Positions 2,935 to 35,856 are shown, counted from the first letter of the stretch. The stretch: 64,000 nucleotides of DNA from Gammaproteobacteria bacterium (GCA_016199745.1 JACQFZ010000070.1:1-64000), one strand, 5' to 3'. Notes: generated by a model from the sequence alone, not told the origin. Numbers and translations are program-made.

Positions 2935-3160
2935 CTAAATAGTTAGTACAACGGCGTGCAACTCCTCCATGCGCAACAGCGTGCTGCCAGCAATCGGCAG
3001 CTGCCCGCTGTCGAGTGCCGTGCCGTAATCCGTTAATCGATCTTCGTTCTTGGCGTGGATTGCCCGAAGCTTGCTTAGGGCCGTCGGACCTATGCCAACT
3101 ACATCGCATTCGGTGCCGATGAAATAGTCGCACATGTCGTAGTTGAGCTGGCCATGCTGA
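2935..3160 (-). pseudogene. hemN: C-terminal fragment of oxygen-independent coproporphyrinogen III dehydrogenase
   Basis: The minus-strand frame reads ARQHGQLNYDMCDYF, then a TECDVVGIGPTALSKL stretch, then an N-x6-DYGTALDSGQLPI stretch. This matches the region of HemN that follows the radical-SAM barrel (family pattern: R-Q-G-LHRNFQGYTT, D-DLIGLG-SAI, QN-K-L-DYYA-LD-GRLP). Only about 70 codons survive and the last residues before the stop no longer match. The 5' end is cut at about 3160, exactly where a plus-strand kinase frame begins. HemN normally makes haem under low oxygen and often sits beside cbb3/anr genes. Identification is by motif only. Confidence 0.6.
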
Positions 3161-3161
3161 C

Positions 3162-3944
3162 GTGCCTTCAGAGGAGTTCCCGATCGATGCGTCGATTTCG
3201 CACATCACCGAGAACGGCCAGAAGTTTTATACCGTGATTCTGCGCGACGTTACCGAGCGTGTACGGGCGGAAGCGGCCTTGCGCTGCTCCAAAGAAGAAC
3301 TGTACGAGCTTGCCGCCGCCGCAAATCAGCTACGCGAGCAAGAAAAGCGCCGCATCGCTCGCGAGCTGCACGACGAGCTGGCACAGGCGCTGACCGGACT
3401 TAAGATGGATGTCGCCTGGATCAAAGATAAGCTAACGGCGCCACCGTTACCGATCGCCGATAAGCTGAAGGTCATGGAAGCGCTGCTCGACAGTACCGTC
3501 GCCGCCACCCGCCGTATCTCTTCGGATCTACGGCCGATGATGCTCGATGACCTCGGCTTGCTGCCGGCGACGGAATGGCTGGTGCAAAACTTTATCGAGC
3601 GTAGCGGTATCCAATGTCACCTCGCTGTCGCTGATCCTGAACTTGAAATGTACGATCCACAGGCAAAGATGCTGTTTCGCGTGTTACAGGAATCGCTAAC
3701 CAATATCGCCAAGCATGCGCAAGCGACTAGCGTGGATGTGACGGTCGAAAACGCCGACGGTGAAATCGTATTCAGCGTGCGCGACGATGGAATCGGTTTC
3801 ACGTCGACAGATCCGCGTAAACCGAATTCCTATGGCCTCATCGGCCTTCGCGAACGGGTATACTTGATCGGCGGTAAGGTGAAAATCGAAAGCAGTCCCG
3901 GCCATGGCACTTATATCGAGGTACGGCTACCGTTCAATCCATGA
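3162..3944 (+). pseudogene. 5'-truncated NarL-type sensor histidine kinase
   Basis: About 260 residues. The frame opens in the middle of a PAS domain's last strand (EEFPIDASIS...VILRDVTER), continues through a short coiled coil into a HisKA_3 dimerisation domain with the phospho-acceptor His in RRIARELHDELAQALTGL, and ends with a HATPase_c domain (N-box LTNIAKHA, DDGIG, GLIGLRERV). No start codon or signal-input domain precedes it: an in-frame stop lies at 3144-3146, and the sequence before 3160 belongs to the hemN fragment on the other strand. The catalytic core could still be translated from GTG 3162, but sensing is lost. Its partner regulator follows and is frameshifted. Confidence 0.7.
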
Positions 3945-3988
3945 TGCGCGTCGTCATACCGGTCGAAGAAACGCGTCAGCGTACCAAC

Positions 3989-4072
3989 TCCCCCTCTCCC
4001 CTCGCCGGAGAGGTCGCTCCTGCGCTCGCGACATTCGTACCTCCCTGTACCGCAGGATGGGGCGAGGGGGAA
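3989..4072. repeat. C-rich/G-rich imperfect inverted repeat
   Basis: Between kinase and regulator, a CCCCCTCTCCCCTCGCC arm faces a GGGGCGAGGGGGAA arm. It resembles the pyrimidine/purine arms inside the two larger elements at 4942 and 7848 but lacks their termini. Probably a dispersed intergenic repeat; it also supplies the GAGGGGG before the regulator's GTG start. Confidence 0.4.
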
Positions 4073-4074
4073 GC

Positions 4075-4721
4075 GTGATCCGAGTAGTGATTGCCGACGA
4101 TCACACGATCGTGCGCGAGGGGCTCAAGCAGCTGCTCGCCGACGCCGATTTTTCGATTGTCGGCGAGGCGCGTGACGGTCAAGAAGTCCTGCAGTGCGTG
4201 CGCGAGCTCGAGTTCGACGTGTTGCTGCTCGACATGTCGATGCCGAAAAAGAGCGGCATCGAACTGATCAAGCAGATCCGCAGTGAAAAGCCGAAGCTGC
4301 GTATCCTTATATTAAGCATGCATGAGGAGCAGCAATACGCGATCCGTGCGATCAAGGCCGGCGCCGCCGGTTATCTGACGAAAGAAAGCGCTCCGCGCAG
4401 CTGATCTCGGCGATCCGCAAGGTCGCTGGCGGTGGCGCTTTCATTAGCGCCGAGGTAGCCGAGCAATTGGCGCTCGGCGCCATGCCGCAGACCAGCGGCC
4501 CACCACATACCACGCTGTCTGACCGCGAGTACCAGGTATTTCAGCTGCTGGTTTCCGGCAAGTCCGTCACCGAGATCGGCGAGCGGCTGAACTTGTCGGT
4601 CAAAACCGTGAGCACGCACAAGGCTCGCCTCATGGAAAAGATGGGGCTGACCAACCAAACCGAATTAATCCGTTACGCGATCGCCAATCAACTGGTCGAC
4701 GATCCCAAGTCAGGCGGTTAG
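4075..4721 (+). pseudogene. NarL/LuxR-type response regulator with one-base frameshift
   Basis: From GTG 4075 the first 107 codons form a receiver domain (VVIADDHTIVREGL, phospho-acceptor Asp in DVLLLDMSMPKKSG, Lys in AAGYLTKES). The frame then stops at TGA 4402-4404. Shifting frame at about 4396 restores a contiguous family match (QLISAIRKVAGGG), then a LuxR-type HTH (LSDREYQVFQLLVSGKSVTEIGERLNLSVKTVSTHKARLM) to TAG 4721. The shift equals loss of one base. As read, the product has no DNA-binding domain. It forms a pair with the preceding truncated kinase, so the system looks dead, unless the shift is an assembly error. Confidence 0.75.
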
Positions 4722-4804
4722 AACGCTGCTGCTATTCCACCGAGTAGGTCGATTCCTACCCCATCCTAACGAATCACCCGCAACCACAATTTCGACGCCT
4801 CTGC

Positions 4805-4957
4805 ATGAAGGCCGGGGCAAACGTGTTTACGGTAAGCCGCATTTTTTCCAAGTTGCAGCGATCGGGCTTAATCGATGTCGATAACAAAAATGTGCACTTG
4901 CTCGACGTGCCGGCACGCCGAGCAATGCTAAGTCGGACACGAATGGCACTTACTTAA
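4805..4957 (+). pseudogene. C-terminal HTH remnant of an Fnr/Anr-type regulator
   Basis: A 50-codon plus-strand frame contains FTVSRIFSKLQRSGLIDVD followed by NVHLLDVPARRAML. This is the recognition helix and wing of Crp/Fnr-family regulators (family pattern: ETVSR-FS-LQ-GLI-V--k-v-l-D). Upstream sequence has no cAMP/Fe-S sensor domain. Its last five codons and stop lie inside the terminal repeat of the element at 4942, so the element cut or replaced the natural end. Position beside the cco genes fits the usual anr location. Confidence 0.55.
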
Positions 4958-5228
4958 GCAAGAGCCGAAGCATATCGGCCGACACTCCCTCCCCCTCAGG
5001 GGGGTGAGGCGAAGCTTTCGCCAGTGTCCAGTGGACACTGGCGCCGCCGAACGGGCGCACGTGATATTCGTGCGCACCGGGCGGGAACAGCCGGGGTGGG
5101 GGTGGGTTTTTTGCAGTAGCGACCACAACCCACCCCCATCCTGTCCTTCCCCCTGAAGGGGAAGGAACCTGCTAATAAGTTCGGGGCAGGTCAGTTTAGT
5201 AACATAGTCGAGTTAAGTAAGTACCATT
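4942..5228. mobile_element. MITE-like inverted-repeat element, long copy (287 bp)
   Basis: Bounded by AATGGCACTTACTTAA on the left and the complement of AATGGTACTTACTTAA on the right (15 of 16 bases match). The interior has G-rich and C-rich arms flanking GGTTTTTTGCAGTAGCGACC. It is a second copy of the element at 7848 but carries about 83 extra bases with two nested hairpins (5020-5042 and 5055-5075). It has no coding capacity. It ends the fnr remnant on one side and supplies the last codons of the SafE-like gene on the other. I see no flanking target duplication here. Confidence 0.75.
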
Positions 5229-5882
5229 CAGCAACGCGTAGATACCCAGCGCAATTAGCAACAGACCCACGACGCGCCGCACCCACGCTTGGCGCGCGAT
5301 ACCACCAAACCAACGCGCCGTAGCGCCCATGATAAGCAACATTGGCAATGTACCGAGACCGAATGCCGTCATTAGCGCGGCACTCTCGGTAGCGCCGCCG
5401 GCGGCGAGTGACCACGCAAGCGTGGCGTAGACCAATCCGCACTGAAGCCAACCCCACAATAATCCGAGCAGCAACGCCTGTAGCGGATGGCGTACCGGCA
5501 ATAAGCGCCGGCCAAGCGGTGCGATGCGGGTCCATAAATTTCCGCCGAGTCGTTCGAGCAATGCGAGGCCGGTCCACCAACCCGTGAGATACAGGCCGAG
5601 CGCAACCATAAAAGCAGCGGAAATTAGCCGCGCCACAAAGCGCGGTGCCAACTGCAACAACGGTACACTGAGAAAACCGACGATCGCACCGGCTACGGCA
5701 TAACTGGCGATACGTCCGGTGTTATAGGCAAGCAGATACGGAGCGATCGACCCCATCGTGCGGCCGGGAGCGCGGATACCCAAGGTCAAGGCACCGACGA
5801 TTCCGCCGCACATGCCAATACAATGGATCGAGCTCAGCAGGCCGACTAGGAACGCCGCGCCCAACGAGATCTCGTTAGGCAC
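5196..5882 (-). CDS. sulfite exporter TauE/SafE-type membrane protein of the cbb3 locus
   Basis: About 228 residues, six or seven membrane helices. The N-terminal helix carries the HCIGMCGG motif of the SafE-like proteins found in cbb3 oxidase clusters, which are thought to help copper or redox handling; the exact role is not established. It begins at GTG 5882, two bases after the ccoH stop, so it is the distal gene of the ccoGH transcript. The last nine codons (TYLTRLCY and stop) come from the inverted repeat of the neighbouring element, so the natural C-terminus has been replaced. The conserved core is intact and the protein is probably functional. Confidence 0.8.
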   Translation of the reverse strand: MPNEISLGAAFLVGLLSSIHCIGMCGGIVGALTLGIRAPGRTMGSIAPYLLAYNTGRIASYAVAGAIVGFLSVPLLQLAPRFVARLISAAFMVALGLYLTGWWTGLALLERLGGNLWTRIAPLGRRLLPVRHPLQALLLGLLWGWLQCGLVYATLAWSLAAGGATESAALMTAFGLGTLPMLLIMGATARWFGGIARQAWVRRVVGLLLIALGIYALLNGTYLTRLCY

Positions 5883-25759: not shown

Positions 25760-28700
25760 TTACTGCCGATGGCACCCAGTCCTCGCCGTCATCGGTGCCG
25801 GCGCGTGATTGCACAGCAATTCGGTCATCTGTTTGGCAGACAACGGCTGACTGTAGTAAAAACCTTGAACAGCGTCGCAACCGTGCTCGATCAAAAACTT
25901 CAGTTGGCCCTCGGTTTCCACGCCCTCGGCGACGGTCTTGAGCTTGAGCGAACTGGCCAAGGCAATGATGGCTCGCGTGATCGACGCCGCTTCTTCGTTA
26001 TCCGGTAGGTCGACGATGAACGACTGATCGATTTTTATGAGATCGATGGGAAAGCGCCGCAGATAACGCAAGTTGGAATATCCGGTACCGAAATCGTCCA
26101 GCGACAGCGACACCCCGATCGATTTCAGCGCGCGTAAGGTTGCGATGACGGTGTCGGCATTATGAATCAGCGTACTTTCCGTCAGTTCCAATTCCAGATA
26201 CTCGGCGCGTACGCCGGTTTGCGCGAGAACTCGGCTTACCAGCTGCGGTACATCCTGGCGGAATAGTTGTCGTGCCGACAAATTAACCGCCAGCGCAAGT
26301 TGGTTATGGCCGGTGACATGCCATGCCTTCAATTGCGCGCACGCTGTCTGTAAGACCCATTCGCCAATAGGTGTAATCAAACCGATTTCTTCGGCAATGG
26401 CAATGAACTGTTCCGGTACGACTATTCCGTGGCCAGGGCGATTCCAGCGAATCAGCGCTTCGATGCCGCAGATTTTTCCGTTCTTGAGATCGAACCGCGG
26501 TTGATAGTACAGCTCGAACTGCTTGCGCTCGACCGCCAGGCGCAACGCACTTTCGAGATCGACGCGCTCGCGCGCTTGTGCGCCCAAGTCGCGGGTATAG
26601 AACTGAAAGCCGTCACGCCGTTCCTCCTTGGCACGGTACATAGCGGCATCGGCGTGCTTGAGTAACATAACCGGTTCATTGCCGTCTTCGGGAAAGATGC
26701 TGATACCGATGCTGGTCGTGACATGGAATTCGCGGCCGTCCACCTCGAACGGGCGGGAGAACGCGTCGAGTATTCGTACCGCTGCATGCTCCGCCTCATC
26801 GATGTGCTTCAGGCTCGACAAGAGAATGACGAATTCATCGCCGCCTAATCGAGCGACGGTATCGCCGTCGCGAACGATTTCCGTGAGCCGCACGGCAACG
26901 ACTTTCAACAGGCCGTCGCCGACCGGATGGCCGAAGGTGTCGTTGATCAGCTTGAATCGATTCAAGTCGAGGAACAGCAACGCTAGTCGTTGATCGCTTC
27001 GGTGCGCGCGGGCGATGGCGTCGCTGATGCGGTCGTCGAGCAGGTTGCGATTGGGAAGCCCAGTCAGCATGTCGTGACTGGCGATGTACTCGACGCGCGC
27101 GACATGCGTCTTGCGCTCGGTGATATCGCTCGCTACGCCGTCGATACGGATCGGCTTGCCGGTGTTGTCTCGCGTTAACCGTGCTTTATCTTCCAGCCAG
27201 CGCACTTCGCCGTTCGGCCGGATGATCCGGTATTCCAACGTCACCGATCCATTGATCGACAATCCGATGCGCGCATCGCGCACCAGTTGGCGATCGTCGG
27301 GATGAACACGTTCGTCCCACAATAGCTGGTCGCGGAAAAAATCGCCGATCGGTCGGCCGTAGACTTTTTCTGCGGCCGGATTGAGATAGAGCAATTCGTT
27401 CGTGTCGGACGATGCCGACCAAACGATGTTGTCGATCGATTCGAGTATTTCTTGTACGCGCCGCTCGAGGCTGGCGTTGACCTCGGTCAACGCTTGCTGC
27501 GCCTCGCGTAATCCTTCGCGGGCGCCATCGAGGCCGATCGCTGCCCTACTCACCTCGAGCTGCAACGAATTAAACGCCTCCGCCATATCGCCCACCTCGT
27601 CGCGCGAGCGGACGCGCACCGGCGTAATCGTCACACGCGCGTGCGCCGCGTCGAGATCGCCGTTCGCCAAGGCCTGCATCGCGCGGGAAAAATCAGCCAG
27701 TGTGCCTTTGACCAGGACGTGCGCGGCATTGGCAACCTCGACCGCCGAATGCGCAATCATGCCCGGTAAAATCAAACCGACACCGATGGTCAGCATCGCG
27801 ACGGCAACAAAAATATCGGCGAGCCCGGCGAGTAACGCCGCTTCGGTTTTCGGCACGACACTGACCGCCAGCAAGTAACCGGCGCCGTCGAGCAGCAACA
27901 CCAACAACATGGCACCGGTCAACTTAAGGTGCAGCGTACGCGCGACCGGCGGCAAACCGGCGCGCCGCCGATCGGAATAGCGGCGCCACGCGTACAGCAG
28001 CGAACCGGAGCAAGCGAGCGCCAAGCCGACGATGACTGTCGGCAGACCGAATTGCTCGAATCCTAACAATGCCGAAATACCCCAGCCGCCGGCGGCCACG
28101 AGCCCAAGACCGATGGTCCCGCGCGGCGCGCGATAGGGTCGCGGGTGGTGCGGTTCGTTACGGCGCAGTAACCAGACGGCAACGCTTGGTAAGGCGATGC
28201 CTATTAAGTAGGTAAAGTTGGTTGCAGCGATCAACCAAACCGGTTGCCCGAGCAACACGAAGCCGATACCCATGCCGCCCGTCAACAGCGTCGCTACCCA
28301 CGGTGTGCCGTTGTACCAGCGCCGGCTAAGCACGCGCGGTAGCAAGCCATCGTCCGCCAATTGCGACAAGGTGCGCGACGCACCGGCGATCGGCTGTAAC
28401 GCTGTCGAGCACATGCTGACGACCAGAAACCAAATAGCGACCGCTTTGGCGGCGGCGCCGAATATCGGTGCGAACGTCGGCCCGAGGATTAACGCCAGAT
28501 CCTTACCGAGTGCTTCCGGCCCGAGCGCGCCTAACCAAACGACGGGCAAGACGATAAAAAAAATACCGGCCAAGGCGGCGCTGGCGAAGACCGCGCGCGG
28601 CACGTTCTTCGTTGGGTTGATCGTTTCGCCGGCGTAGCAATGCACCGCTTCGAACGCCGGTCCGCAGTAACCGACGAGATAAAGGCCAGCCATCAAGCTG

Positions 28701-29329
28701 GTGAGCTCGCCGAACCAACCGGCAAACGGTGTCGTCAGGTGAAACGTGGTGGCCTGCCGCCAATCGACCTCACCGGCGATCATCGGCGTTAGTCCGGAAA
28801 CGAATGCCAGCAATGCCGATAGACCAGCGAGCGGTACCGCAAGTCGAGCCGCCCATTTGAGACCGAATAAATTAACGACGGTGAAAAACAGTAGTAACCC
28901 AATCGCCAGCGCCGTTACCGAGACGTCGGGCAGATACCACGAGTTAATCGCCGACGCCGCTAAAATCGCCGTCACGCCGCACACCCATCCCCACCAATAA
29001 CAAACACCGGTGATCGCGGCGAGCACCGGGCTATAGGGCCGGAATGCGTGCGCGCAGGTAGCGGCGATACCGCCGACACGATTTGGGTACATCAATGTCA
29101 GCTCGGTCCAACCAGGCGTCGCCGCCCAACCGAGCACGACGCCGACGATCAACAACGGAACCGCCGCACTCCCCTGGCCCAGGAATTCTGCCTGGCCGAT
29201 AAAGAGCACAGTGATTAATAACAGGCTGGTGTTGCTGCCACCCAACGCGAGCGCGGTTGTACCGAGCCAGCCGATCGTTCGTGGCGGCGGTGCGGGTACG
29301 CTGTCGTGGTTGGTCTGCTTTGCTTCCAT
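25760..29329 (-). CDS. amino-acid permease fused to HAMP-PAS-GGDEF-EAL (transporter-linked c-di-GMP enzyme)
   Basis: A single open frame of about 1,189 residues (numbers below count from an alternative ATG at 29401, 1,213 residues). Residues ~43-475: APC-superfamily permease with about 12 helices, including TIGWLGTTALALGGSN and the GYCGPAFEAVHCYAGETINP segment. Two extra helices (~491-515, 523-550) lead into a HAMP-like linker (~550-620), coiled coil (~620-650), PAS with PAC (650-765), and GGDEF (770-935) with GGDEF at 853-857 plus a RDGD inhibitory site. EAL (945-1195) with E981-A-L and DDFGTGYSN follows. All enzymatic motifs are intact. I infer that solute binding or transport controls c-di-GMP. 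The start is uncertain; ATG 29329 avoids an unlike N-terminal stretch. Confidence 0.88.
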   Translation of the reverse strand: MEAKQTNHDSVPAPPPRTIGWLGTTALALGGSNTSLLLITVLFIGQAEFLGQGSAAVPLLIVGVVLGWAATPGWTELTLMYPNRVGGIAATCAHAFRPYSPVLAAITGVCYWWGWVCGVTAILAASAINSWYLPDVSVTALAIGLLLFFTVVNLFGLKWAARLAVPLAGLSALLAFVSGLTPMIAGEVDWRQATTFHLTTPFAGWFGELTSLMAGLYLVGYCGPAFEAVHCYAGETINPTKNVPRAVFASAALAGIFFIVLPVVWLGALGPEALGKDLALILGPTFAPIFGAAAKAVAIWFLVVSMCSTALQPIAGASRTLSQLADDGLLPRVLSRRWYNGTPWVATLLTGGMGIGFVLLGQPVWLIAATNFTYLIGIALPSVAVWLLRRNEPHHPRPYRAPRGTIGLGLVAAGGWGISALLGFEQFGLPTVIVGLALACSGSLLYAWRRYSDRRRAGLPPVARTLHLKLTGAMLLVLLLDGAGYLLAVSVVPKTEAALLAGLADIFVAVAMLTIGVGLILPGMIAHSAVEVANAAHVLVKGTLADFSRAMQALANGDLDAAHARVTITPVRVRSRDEVGDMAEAFNSLQLEVSRAAIGLDGAREGLREAQQALTEVNASLERRVQEILESIDNIVWSASSDTNELLYLNPAAEKVYGRPIGDFFRDQLLWDERVHPDDRQLVRDARIGLSINGSVTLEYRIIRPNGEVRWLEDKARLTRDNTGKPIRIDGVASDITERKTHVARVEYIASHDMLTGLPNRNLLDDRISDAIARAHRSDQRLALLFLDLNRFKLINDTFGHPVGDGLLKVVAVRLTEIVRDGDTVARLGGDEFVILLSSLKHIDEAEHAAVRILDAFSRPFEVDGREFHVTTSIGISIFPEDGNEPVMLLKHADAAMYRAKEERRDGFQFYTRDLGAQARERVDLESALRLAVERKQFELYYQPRFDLKNGKICGIEALIRWNRPGHGIVVPEQFIAIAEEIGLITPIGEWVLQTACAQLKAWHVTGHNQLALAVNLSARQLFRQDVPQLVSRVLAQTGVRAEYLELELTESTLIHNADTVIATLRALKSIGVSLSLDDFGTGYSNLRYLRRFPIDLIKIDQSFIVDLPDNEEAASITRAIIALASSLKLKTVAEGVETEGQLKFLIEHGCDAVQGFYYSQPLSAKQMTELLCNHAPAPMTARTGCHRQ

Positions 29330-29516
29330 GATGTCCGTTTTTTGTAGGCGAGCGGATCCTTTTAGGCGGGACCGCCCCATACCGACGTTTGCAATGAACA
29401 TGCCGTTGCGTCGATGCGACGCGGCAGACCGAATTAATCGTTAGACGCGACGGAAAGCCGACGCGGATGTTGTGGAACATTGATAGGATCGCCTTTTTCG
29501 ACAGTTTCCCTACCGA

Positions 29517-32513: not shown

Positions 32514-32811
32514 ACTGCGTGAGATTCAATCGAAATGGGATTGCCACTGTATATAGCGCTGGGCAGGCGACTCGGACAAATCGGCGACCAGGCAGATCGA
32601 ATCGCGCACACGTAAATGGTCGATTCGGAAACTGTGGTTTATATCTAGGGTCTTACGAAAAGGTGTAAAGGTCGAACGTTAAGTTGACCCCCGTCCCTAC
32701 CTTCCTGGATATCTATCAGCGACGCCGTGACGACGCGTTCAGACAAGACAACGCCGCCCGCCAGCTCGTCGTTTTTTTTTCGCGCCCCTAGACTGTGTAG
32801 GTATTAGCGCT
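32514..32811. other. intergenic with possible gene debris
   Basis: The minus strand carries the coding-like stretch upstream of the TGA at 32526-32528. The plus strand has a short frame around 32695-32790 (DIYQRRRDDAFRQDNAARQL) without a start or known family. A T9 run lies at about 32772. Nothing here can be called a gene. Confidence 0.35.
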
Positions 32812-32996
32812 CTAGGTATTCCCAGGATATTCATCCGCGGGAATGAAACGGGAAGTTCGGTGCGCTTACTTCAGCAAATCCGACGCTGCCCCCGCAACGG
32901 TAAACGAGCAAGGCTAGCAGCACGCCACTGTGTAATAGCACGGGAAGGCGCTAGTCAAGGATACAACATCCAGCTCGTGAGCCCGGAGACCGGCCT
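32812..32996 (+). ncRNA. cobalamin (adenosylcobalamin) riboswitch
   Basis: Well-formed class: GAATGAAACGGGAA near the 5' side (32841), CGGTGCG, GCTGCCCCCGCAACGGTA (32885-32902), GCCACTG (32924-32930), CGGGAAGGCG (32941-32950) and the closing B12 box AGCCCGGAGACCGGCC (32980-32995), in canonical order and spacing. It precedes, on the same strand, a 52-codon ORF and gbcA/gbcB-like genes. Known elements of this family switch expression off when the coenzyme is bound. About 150 bases separate it from the first start codon, room for a terminator or anti-Shine-Dalgarno helix that I could not model. Confidence 0.92.
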
Positions 32997-33146
32997 AGGG
33001 TGAATAGCAATTAGTATCGCGGTGGGCGATGCAGATGGTTGTCAGGGATGCATCCGTCTTTAACTCCTCCACTGAAATCGCTCAGCACGGTTGCGTGAGG
33101 TCGCCGCACGCGCGAATGAGTAGCCACGCCTGGAAGGAGACAAGTT

Positions 33147-33305
33147 ATGTCTATGTCAGCACTCAAGGAAAAGGACGCCGCGAATGATTTCGCCATGGCC
33201 ATTGTCATGACGGATACCGGCACCCTAATTGTGATTAAAACGGCAACGACCACGTTTGCAATCGTGTCCGCTGCCGAAGTCACAGAGCGCCCGGTACTGC
33301 ATTAA
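33147..33305 (+). CDS. 52-residue small protein between B12 riboswitch and gbcA
   Basis: ATG 33147 follows GGAAGGAGACAAGTT, one of the best ribosome sites in the window. The product has a polar N-terminus (SALKEKDAANDFAMA) and two short beta-prone hydrophobic stretches (IVMTDTGTLIVIK and TTTFAIVSAAE). No transmembrane span is clear, and it does not resemble CbtB or other cobalt proteins. It may be a regulatory leader peptide or a small partner of the oxygenase. I do not recognise a family. Confidence 0.6.
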   Translation: MSMSALKEKDAANDFAMAIVMTDTGTLIVIKTATTTFAIVSAAEVTERPVLH

Positions 33306-33352
33306 CGCGCTCGATCGTTGAACTTCTATTTAATAGCTTCAGGACTTTTACG

Positions 33353-34630
33353 ATGACGGTACACAAGTTACATCGAGTAGAACCGACGCCGGCACGAACG
33401 ACAGTAGATCTGCCGGCGCTGATCGCCGATCGCAAACCGGGGTACAGCCTCGAGGCGCCGTTCTATACCAGCCGCGAGGTATTCGACCTCGATATGGACG
33501 CAATCTTCGGTCGCCACTGGATCCACGTCGGCATCGAGCCCGACGTCGCCGAGCCGGGTGACTACTTCACGGTTGAAATCGGCAATGAGTCGATTTTGAT
33601 CGTGCGCGACGACGATATGCAGATCCGCGCGTTCCACAATGTTTGTCGCCACCGCGGCGCACGGTTGTGCAATGAATCGAAAGGCGTCGTCGGTAACTTG
33701 GTGTGCCCGTATCACCAATGGACTTACAACCTCACCGGCGAACTGATCTCGGCCGAGCACATGGGTGAGCAGTTCGACCGCTGCAAGCATGGCCTGAAAA
33801 CGGTGCACTTACGCAATCTTGCCGGCCTGCTGTTTATCTGCCTAGCGGAACATCCACCGGTCGACTTTGAAGAAATGCGTCGGCAGATGGAGCCCTACTT
33901 GTTACCGCATCAAATCGCCAACACCAAGATCGCGGCACAAGTCGACATCGTCGAGCATTGCAATTGGAAGCTGACGATGGAGAATAACCGCGAGTGCTAT
34001 CACTGCCGCGCGAACCATCCGGAGTTGACGATTTCGGTTTATGAATACGGCTTTGGCTATGCACCGACCGAAGAACACGCCGAGCTGCTGAACAACTTTG
34101 AATCGACGGTCGCGCAAAACCATGCGCGCTGGGAGGCCGATGGCCTGCCGTCGCGTGAGCTCGAACACCTGAACGACCGCGTCACCGGCTTCCGAACCAT
34201 GCGCTTACCTCTCGATCGCGCGCATGAATCGCAAACACTCGATTCGAAAGTCGCGTGCAGCCATCTGCTCGGCGACTTCAAACGTGCCGATCTCGGCGGC
34301 CTGTCGTTCTGGACTCAGCCCAATTCATGGCATCACTTCATGAGCGACCACATCGTCACGTTCTCGGTGTTGCCGTTGACCGCCGAGACCACGCTCGTGC
34401 GTACCAAGTGGCTGGTGCATAAAGACGCGATCGAAGGCAAAGACTACAACTTGGAAAACCTGATGGCAGTTTGGAATGCCACCAACGATCAGGACCGCAT
34501 GCTGGTCGAGCAAGCGCAGCGCGGCGTCCGTAGCAAAGCCTATCAACCGGGTCCGTTGTCGCCGTACACCGAAGACTTAGTTGAAAAGTTTTGCGGCTGG
34601 TACATCAAGCGGCTACGCGCCGCACTCTAG
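33353..34630 (+). CDS. gbcA: Rieske oxygenase, glycine betaine demethylase subunit GbcA-like
   Basis: 425 residues. Rieske [2Fe-2S] site CRHRGARLC...CPYHQW (Cys-X-His and Cys-X2-His), then a catalytic domain with mononuclear-iron ligands around NNRECYHCRANHPEL. The C-terminal WLVHKDAIEGKDYNLE and VWNATNDQDRMLVEQAQRGV blocks are close to Pseudomonas GbcA. GbcA oxidatively removes one methyl group from glycine betaine, giving dimethylglycine and formaldehyde, with electrons from GbcB. Stachydrine or carnitine oxygenases are close alternatives. AGGA precedes ATG 33353. Upstream control by a cobalamin riboswitch is unexpected for this family. Confidence 0.82.
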   Translation: MTVHKLHRVEPTPARTTVDLPALIADRKPGYSLEAPFYTSREVFDLDMDAIFGRHWIHVGIEPDVAEPGDYFTVEIGNESILIVRDDDMQIRAFHNVCRHRGARLCNESKGVVGNLVCPYHQWTYNLTGELISAEHMGEQFDRCKHGLKTVHLRNLAGLLFICLAEHPPVDFEEMRRQMEPYLLPHQIANTKIAAQVDIVEHCNWKLTMENNRECYHCRANHPELTISVYEYGFGYAPTEEHAELLNNFESTVAQNHARWEADGLPSRELEHLNDRVTGFRTMRLPLDRAHESQTLDSKVACSHLLGDFKRADLGGLSFWTQPNSWHHFMSDHIVTFSVLPLTAETTLVRTKWLVHKDAIEGKDYNLENLMAVWNATNDQDRMLVEQAQRGVRSKAYQPGPLSPYTEDLVEKFCGWYIKRLRAAL

Positions 34631-34641
34631 AGCTCGAACCC

Positions 34642-35748
34642 ATGCAAGCATTGGATACCCGTCTGACCCAAGAGTTTTTGGCGCAAGTGCCGACGTCGTG
34701 GAACGGCGAGCGCGACGACTATTTGATTTGCTGCCGCACCCAGCAGGAAACGCACGACGTCAAAAGCTTTTTCTTCCGGGCGCCGGAACCGCGGCTGTTC
34801 CGTTTCAGCCCCGGGCAGTACATCACGCTGGAGTTGGAAATCGACGGCGACCGCATCAATCGCTGCTACACCATTTCGTCCGCCCCTACCCGGCCGGATA
34901 CGATCTCGATCACGGTGAAGCGGGTACCGGGCGGTAAAGTCTCCAATTGGTTGCACGACAATCTGCGCGTCGGCGACAGCGTGCGTGCGCTCGGACCGGC
35001 GGGTGACTTCACCTGCGTCAACAAACCGGCAAAAAAATATCTGTTCCTGTCCGGCGGCAGCGGTATCACACCGTTGATGTCGATGGCGCGCGCGTTTTAC
35101 GAGTTCGGCGACGATCAAGACATCGTTTTCGTGCACGCCGCGCGCACGCCGAACGACATCATTTTCAAGCGTGAGCTGGAAATGATGGCAAGTCACATGC
35201 AGAAATTTCGCACCGCTTTCGTCTGCGAGAATCGCGGCAAACAACCGGAATGGAGCGGCTACACCGGCTACCTCTCGCCCGCCTCGTTGCAACTGATTGC
35301 CCCGGATTTTCGTGAGCGCGAAGTGTTCACTTGTGGACCCGGGCCGTTCATGAAGGCGGTCAAGGAAATGCTTGCCCAGTCCGAGTTCGATTTATCGCAT
35401 TACCACCAAGAAAGCTTCTCGTTCGAAGAAGCGGCCTCGACCAACGCCGAACCACCAGCCGTGCCAGCGGCGACGGCAGCGCAGGCGCAATTTACCATCG
35501 ATTTCGCAAAAAGCCGGCGTACCGTGAACTGCGATTCGCAAACCAACATTCTCGACGCGGCACGCGCCAATGGCTTGCGGCTGCCGGCGTCGTGTGCGCA
35601 AGGCATGTGCGGTACCTGCAAATGCAAGCTTGCGTCCGGCAAAGTTGATATGGTGCATAAAGGCGGGATTCGCCAGCGCGAAATCGATCAGGGGTTTATC
35701 TTGATCTGCTGCAGTAAACCGCTGACAGATCTGGTGATCGAGAAGTGA
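34642..35748 (+). CDS. gbcB: ferredoxin-NADP reductase-type electron donor GbcB-like
   Basis: About 368 residues. FAD-binding domain with RCYTISSAPT, NAD(P)-binding domain (LFLSGGSGITPLMSMARA; EVFTCGPGPFMKAV), a ~30-residue Ala/Pro linker, and a C-terminal plant-type [2Fe-2S] ferredoxin domain with CAQGMCGTCKC and the fourth Cys in LICCSKP. It supplies electrons from NAD(P)H to the Rieske oxygenase. ATG 34642 lies 11 bp after the gbcA stop; the frame extends back into gbcA but has no better start. The pair is complete. Confidence 0.85.
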   Translation: MQALDTRLTQEFLAQVPTSWNGERDDYLICCRTQQETHDVKSFFFRAPEPRLFRFSPGQYITLELEIDGDRINRCYTISSAPTRPDTISITVKRVPGGKVSNWLHDNLRVGDSVRALGPAGDFTCVNKPAKKYLFLSGGSGITPLMSMARAFYEFGDDQDIVFVHAARTPNDIIFKRELEMMASHMQKFRTAFVCENRGKQPEWSGYTGYLSPASLQLIAPDFREREVFTCGPGPFMKAVKEMLAQSEFDLSHYHQESFSFEEAASTNAEPPAVPAATAAQAQFTIDFAKSRRTVNCDSQTNILDAARANGLRLPASCAQGMCGTCKCKLASGKVDMVHKGGIRQREIDQGFILICCSKPLTDLVIEK

Positions 35749-35856
35749 CAGGAGTTGCGTTGGCGCGGCCGGGATTCTTTTTATCCGGCGCCTCACTCCA
35801 TTTGTGGGGCGATGGCGAAACATAGAACTTGCGCCCAGGCTGGTCGAGCAACAGGG

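Follow-up and report, generated by a model that had tools for sequence, protein, structure and literature searches.

A cobalamin riboswitch ahead of GbcAB-like genes suggests a B12-independent stand-in for corrinoid-dependent betaine demethylation

Cobalamin riboswitches classically govern B12-independent isozymes, such as those encoded by metE and nrd. What role might such an element play in front of genes for an oxidative betaine demethylase? The question is raised by a locus near the middle of a 64,000-nucleotide stretch of DNA from a gammaproteobacterium (hereafter the window, its source being the window genome). An initial annotation had read this locus as a complete cobalamin riboswitch followed, on the same strand, by a small ORF and a gbcA/gbcB-like gene pair, and had suggested that the encoded oxygenase may replace, without B12, a betaine or methyl-transfer route that depends on corrinoids, or may act on a different substrate tied to B12 metabolism. 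The order and strand of the genes were confirmed, with the following features:

32797..33012, plus strand: cobalamin riboswitch aptamer (RF00174; Rfam and our own covariance model)
33016..33030, plus strand: candidate P13/L13 hairpin, AUCGC-GGUGG-GCGAU, proposed from reading the sequence by eye
33064..33070, plus strand: CUCCUCC, a possible anti-Shine-Dalgarno of the expression platform (by eye, speculative)
33147..33305, plus strand: 52-aa ORF (orf52), a leader or small protein, first cistron 3' of the riboswitch (Shine-Dalgarno and codon score)
33353..34630, plus strand: gbcA-like Rieske non-heme oxygenase, 425 aa (Pfam Rieske and Ring_hydroxyl_A; NCBIfam GbcA)
34642..35748, plus strand: gbcB-like ferredoxin reductase with FAD, NAD and 2Fe-2S domains (NCBIfam GbcB; Pfam FAD_binding_6, NAD_binding_1, Fer2)

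The riboswitch is the sole Rfam match in the whole window. It scored 108.8 bits against a gathering threshold of 31.5 (E = 2.5e-26), and all model positions from 1 to 189 were matched, so the aptamer is full-length, as had been claimed; its start lies 15 nt earlier than the position 32812 originally assigned. A purpose-built covariance model, trained on riboswitches of the window genome and its relatives, gave the same element 138 bits. The window genome carries three such riboswitches, preceding bluB and cobalamin-synthesis genes, cbtB-cbtA and cobN-like genes, and orf52-gbcAB, respectively (gene names assigned by eye).

The leader that follows the aptamer is less easily read. By eye, the loop of the candidate P13/L13 hairpin is complementary to the C-run of L5, suggesting a possible L5-L13 kissing loop, and similar G-rich GCGGGCGG motifs lie 3' of the aptamer in alphaproteobacterial leaders too; the hairpin is absent from the minimum-energy fold. 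The CUCCUCC motif is complementary, with one bulge, to GGAAGGAG, the strong Shine-Dalgarno sequence of orf52 (33132-33139), a pairing that the computed fold does not favour. Folding of the leader RNA revealed no significant structure (z 0.12, or -1.8 when the aptamer was included), and the expression platform is thus not clear in the computed fold, which counts against our main reading. So does the distance of 340 nt, with an intervening ORF, between the end of the aptamer and gbcA. An isolating terminator and promoter ahead of gbcA had been named as the finding that would uncouple it from the riboswitch; low-power scans of the plus strand found no terminator-like or promoter-like site from the aptamer through gbcB, and picked up one weak terminator-like site at 35760, just beyond that gene. 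Since no terminator was seen, a translational read-out appears most likely.

The small ORF itself has gene-like codon usage, with a codon score of 0.244 (gbcA, 0.239) and negative scores in the remaining frames. It matched no protein family in NCBIfam or Pfam and no homologue in anything searched. We considered CbtB as an identity for orf52, since cbtB sits behind another riboswitch of this genome. CbtB proteins have 60-odd residues and an HxxxH motif, and the sequence of orf52 ruled against this assignment. At the other end of the putative unit, we preferred ATG 34642 over TTG 34591 of the ORF listing as the start of the gbcB-like gene, and the next gene, astB, lies on the opposite strand.

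The two enzymes resemble glycine betaine monooxygenase. NCBIfam GbcA and GbcB were the best models for the oxygenase (471 bits, cut-off 670) and the reductase (414 bits, cut-off 500), respectively. Because its score falls below the curated equivalog cut-off, the oxygenase is named GbcA-like only; a homologue within an annotated betaine operon likewise falls under the GbcA cut-off, at 461 bits. The nearest oxygenase homologues come from Burkholderiales (69-72% identity, with a Paraburkholderia homologue at 72%). In one annotated case, the betaine operon around the homologue comprises an NADH:flavin oxidoreductase, an Fe-S protein, ETF subunits, gbcA, gbcB, a glycine betaine binding protein/transporter, a choline permease and a GlxA-type regulator. 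The Rieske ligands C98, H100, C118 and H121 are intact in the window oxygenase and conserved across 107 homologues, as are H217, H222 and D364, the likely facial triad, and the protein differs from the 95% consensus of these homologues at a single residue. The domain features expected of GbcAB, namely Rieske and mononuclear-iron domains with their metal ligands and a paired FAD/2Fe-2S reductase, are all present. The gbcA-like gene is the single member of its family in the window genome, and 56 further genomes of the order, when searched, yielded no gbcAB-like homologue. This absence makes acquisition likely, and the pair was probably gained horizontally, judging from its distribution. The G+C content of the gbcA-like gene nevertheless equals that of the window.

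A B12-independent alternative presupposes a B12-dependent counterpart in the same cell. Aerobic cobalamin-dependent betaine demethylation was described in 2025 in Ruegeria pomeroyi, where it involves MtgB, MtgC, MtgD, MtgE, MetF2, RamA, DUF1638 and the serine cycle (PMC12478193). A search of the window genome (a draft of 4.26 Mb, 98% complete with 2.2% contamination) for corrinoid enzymes, metH and metE, as the initial annotation had proposed, recovered a corresponding route together with MetH, and found no MetE. One cluster encodes an MtgC-like corrinoid protein, DUF1638, MetV, MetF (MetF2), an MtgD-like methyltetrahydrofolate:corrinoid methyltransferase, an AcsV/RamA-like activase and a BHMT-like (MtgE-like) protein, preceded by soxG and an ABC transporter. 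The three MTTB-family methyltransferases of the genome lie away from this cluster; the top scorer reaches 799 bits with PDB 4yyc and 429 bits with a glycine betaine methyltransferase in the PDB. All members of the MtgBCDE gene set (MTTB, corrinoid protein, pterin methyltransferase, homocysteine methyltransferase-like protein and activase) are thus present, and the set matches the aerobic system of PMC12478193. The MtgC protein scored 203 bits against the cut-off of 370 of the NCBIfam MtgC model; aerobic MtgC is reported to be distinct from the type found in anaerobes (PMC12478193). Also encoded are two DMGDH-like proteins, SoxB, SoxA, SoxG, GlyA, SdaA, ETF and GbdR-like regulators, which provide for the oxidation of dimethylglycine and sarcosine, as well as serine-cycle and formate dehydrogenase genes read from the sequence. 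Overall, the gene content looks like that of a betaine-using methylotroph. On one contig, a large region for methylated-amine use includes three GbdR-like regulators and several oligopeptide-type binding proteins alongside serine-cycle and formate dehydrogenase genes.

Bacteria bearing GbcAB and those bearing MtgBCDE have been set in contrast (PMC12478193). Unlike in that contrast, the two gene sets co-occur in the window genome, a co-occurrence that depends on draft-genome binning, as the one in Shinella does not. The tetranucleotide make-up of the contigs matches (r 0.91-0.96, versus 0.58-0.83 for other genomes), which argues that they belong to one genome. These findings support the suggestion of a B12-independent alternative, with an mtg set and three MTTB proteins encoded in the same genome.

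We then asked whether the pairing recurs. The survey of gbcA homologues proposed at the outset gave a divided answer. Text-pattern and covariance-model searches found no riboswitch near gbcA in any of the 80 closer homologue loci, and recurrence appeared only once the search was extended to more distant homologues on plasmids. There, Rfam confirmed a riboswitch before a gbcA-like gene in 7 of 26 plasmid loci examined, all seven of them alphaproteobacterial; the search covered plasmid records and one scan, limited in output, of named genomes, and the number of such loci is at least seven. The riboswitches upstream of gbcA-like genes, with their Rfam scores, are:

Phaeobacter gallaeciensis, 119 bits
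Gemmobacter fulvus, 115 bits
Ruegeria sp. TM1040, 110 bits
Cereibacter azotoformans, 104 bits
Tritonibacter mobilis, 103 bits
T. scottomollicae (Tritonibacter), 96 bits
Shinella sp. PSBB067, 89 bits

In all seven loci the riboswitch lies about 110-140 nt 5' of the oxygenase start, with no intervening gene. Shinella PSBB067 carries a complete mtg cluster on the same replicon as its riboswitch-gbcAB unit, its MtgC and MtgB being 81% and 68% identical, respectively, to those of the window genome. By gene content, it joins the window genome, to which it is unrelated, in combining the B12-dependent route with a riboswitch-associated oxygenase. In Cereibacter azotoformans, metH lies convergently right behind the riboswitch-gbcAB unit on pORIO2.

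At the observed riboswitch densities, any one gene would have such a riboswitch on its own strand within 400 nt with a probability of about 1e-4. Over the 107 loci together, the expectation is about 0.01 cases if kinship is ignored, and P is about 2e-7 for even three independent cases. Phylogenetically, the clade of the stachydrine demethylase Stc2 takes in all seven of the alphaproteobacterial enzymes with a riboswitch, and the window oxygenase, about 43% identical to them, falls in the GbcA clade of betaproteobacteria; well-supported branches force at least three changes of the riboswitch label. Because the carriers occupy separate clades, and the other sampled members of the window clade lack a riboswitch, we conclude that the pairing arose more than once. 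No second case from the clade of the window oxygenase was found in 57 genomes of the order or in a class sample of 369. Several riboswitch-less relatives have a divergent LysR-type gene immediately 5' of the oxygenase instead. A stretch of plasmid pAZKH of Azoarcus sp. KH32C (about 143-206 kb) carries mtgB, mtgC, mtgD, metF2, metV, DUF1638, an activase, DMGDH, sarcosine oxidase, betAB and gbcAB, so that both betaine routes are adjacent; its gbcA has no riboswitch, and its genes are 58-86% identical to those of the window genome.

Taken together, we think it probable that the cobalamin riboswitch controls orf52-gbcA-gbcB and that GbcAB is a B12-independent stand-in for the corrinoid betaine demethylase, turned down when B12 is ample. 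The three genes would form a single transcription unit under the riboswitch, and GbcAB, using O2 and NAD(P)H, would convert glycine betaine (or else a closely related quaternary amine) to dimethylglycine and formaldehyde, replacing the corrinoid-dependent MtgB-MtgC-MtgD when needed. With ample B12, the ligand-bound fold would keep gbcAB down and betaine would be channelled via MtgBCD into methyl-tetrahydrofolate. A shortage of B12 or cobalt would allow gbcAB to be made, and betaine use could go on, leaving the remaining cobalamin reserved for methionine synthesis (MetH, MtgCDE). A point against this reading is that cobalamin-synthesis genes are present in the window genome, so a B12 shortage would be a shortage of cobalt or of a precursor. 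The read-out would be translation initiation at the first cistron, orf52, with a downstream effect on gbcAB. By the logic of metE and nrd, gbcAB is expected to be off with cobalamin bound and on under scarcity. More broadly, we lean towards a convergent, recurrent strategy in Proteobacteria, in which cobalamin riboswitches on GbcAB/Stc2-type Rieske demethylases allow cells with a corrinoid route to go O2-dependent when B12 is short.

Might the riboswitch instead serve orf52 alone, or be the remnant of a lost btuB or cobalt-transport gene, with gbcAB behind it by chance? Such a history would suit the seemingly horizontal origin of gbcAB, missing from the rest of the order genomes searched, and an orf52 with no detected homologue; moreover, most cobalamin riboswitches in the family lie ahead of btuB-like genes, and no such riboswitch turned up at btuB in the window genome. 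We nevertheless regard it as distinctly unlikely, given that seven further loci have the riboswitch directly 5' of gbcA-like genes against the minute number expected over the loci examined, that no terminator was found before gbcA, and that a corrinoid betaine route exists in the same genome. A minor possibility, which keeps the logic of replacing an MTTB/corrinoid system, is that the riboswitch does regulate gbcAB and the substrate is another quaternary amine, of the proline betaine or carnitine type. Three MTTB paralogues are encoded in the window genome, and several betaines are handled by paralogues of this kind (PMC12478193). The alphaproteobacterial cases belong to the Stc2 clade, one riboswitch-less member of which adjoins a 4-hydroxyproline betaine epimerase; the window oxygenase, however, is part of the other clade, the one represented in glycine betaine operons.

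It is highly improbable that B12 turns gbcAB on, or that the oxygenase acts in corrinoid metabolism, for example in ring or lower-ligand chemistry. The two other riboswitches of the window genome do precede cobalamin and cobalt genes, but we set a corrin-biosynthetic role aside on the 70% identity between the oxygenase and enzymes of betaine operons, and we know of no corrin-linked Rieske demethylase. An activating corrinoid riboswitch is on record, as a rare case (PMC10653944).

The proposed control of gbcAB shares its RNA family with riboswitch-controlled metE and class I nrd, and here, too, the target would take over from a B12-dependent enzyme of the same cell; that counterpart is encoded alongside the candidate target in the window genome and in Shinella PSBB067. 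In a genome of the same genus, cobalamin riboswitches lie ahead of genes resembling metE, nrd and btuB (read by eye), and control of isozymes is thus already used in the genus. The cobalamin regulon differs strongly within the genus, this relative having metE-like, nrd-like and btuB-like targets and the window genome bluB, cbtB and gbcAB, with no MetE found. Unlike metE and nrd, the target here is a Rieske oxygenase of osmolyte catabolism and no biosynthetic isozyme, and the products differ, with formaldehyde from GbcAB and methyl-tetrahydrofolate from the corrinoid route. Compared to the GbcAB glycine betaine monooxygenases of Pseudomonas and Chromohalobacter, the window pair has the same domains, a paired reductase and nearest homologues in betaine operons, whereas it stands isolated, with a riboswitch and a small ORF, and scores below the NCBIfam cut-offs. 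With the Stc2 clade (PDB 3vca, 4qup, 3n0q), which holds the seven riboswitch-bearing enzymes, it shares the Rieske family, yet it forms part of a separate clade. Every component of MtgBCDE (PMC12478193) is encoded elsewhere in the window genome, but as the B12-dependent counterpart and not as the riboswitch target.

We found no description of a riboswitch paired with gbcA or a Rieske betaine demethylase in the open full-text literature, in line with the initial annotation, which knew of no such regulon. The single paper found to mention gbcA as well as a riboswitch is the description of MtgBCDE, where "riboswitch" occurs only in a glycine-riboswitch reference (PMC12478193). Five cobamide-independent alternatives were listed in a survey of cobamide use whose main text does not mention betaine (PMC6461909). 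As far as could be found, the type of control is already known and the target class is new. Aerobic cobalamin-dependent betaine demethylation has been proposed as a major route of oceanic osmolyte turnover. If our reading is true, the two betaine routes would be alternatives within one cell, with B12 supply choosing between them and carbon exiting as formaldehyde or methyl-tetrahydrofolate depending on the active route. Osmolyte turnover would then be tied to B12 supply, and the cobalamin regulon would gain a new class of target. Culturable carriers of the pairing include Ruegeria TM1040, Phaeobacter and Shinella.

Some further observations concern related systems. A split MtgCDE system has been reported in Phaeobacter inhibens (PMC12478193). 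On a plasmid of Leisingera caerulea (2968-5810 of the examined stretch), a Rieske oxygenase 35% identical to GbcA lies directly 5' of an MTTB-family gene that contains an Rfam match to PYLIS_3, the pyrrolysine insertion sequence of mttB. Elsewhere in the window, the minus strand (25760-29401) encodes a 1213-aa protein that appears by eye to be a fusion of an amino-acid permease with HAMP, PAS, GGDEF and EAL-like parts.
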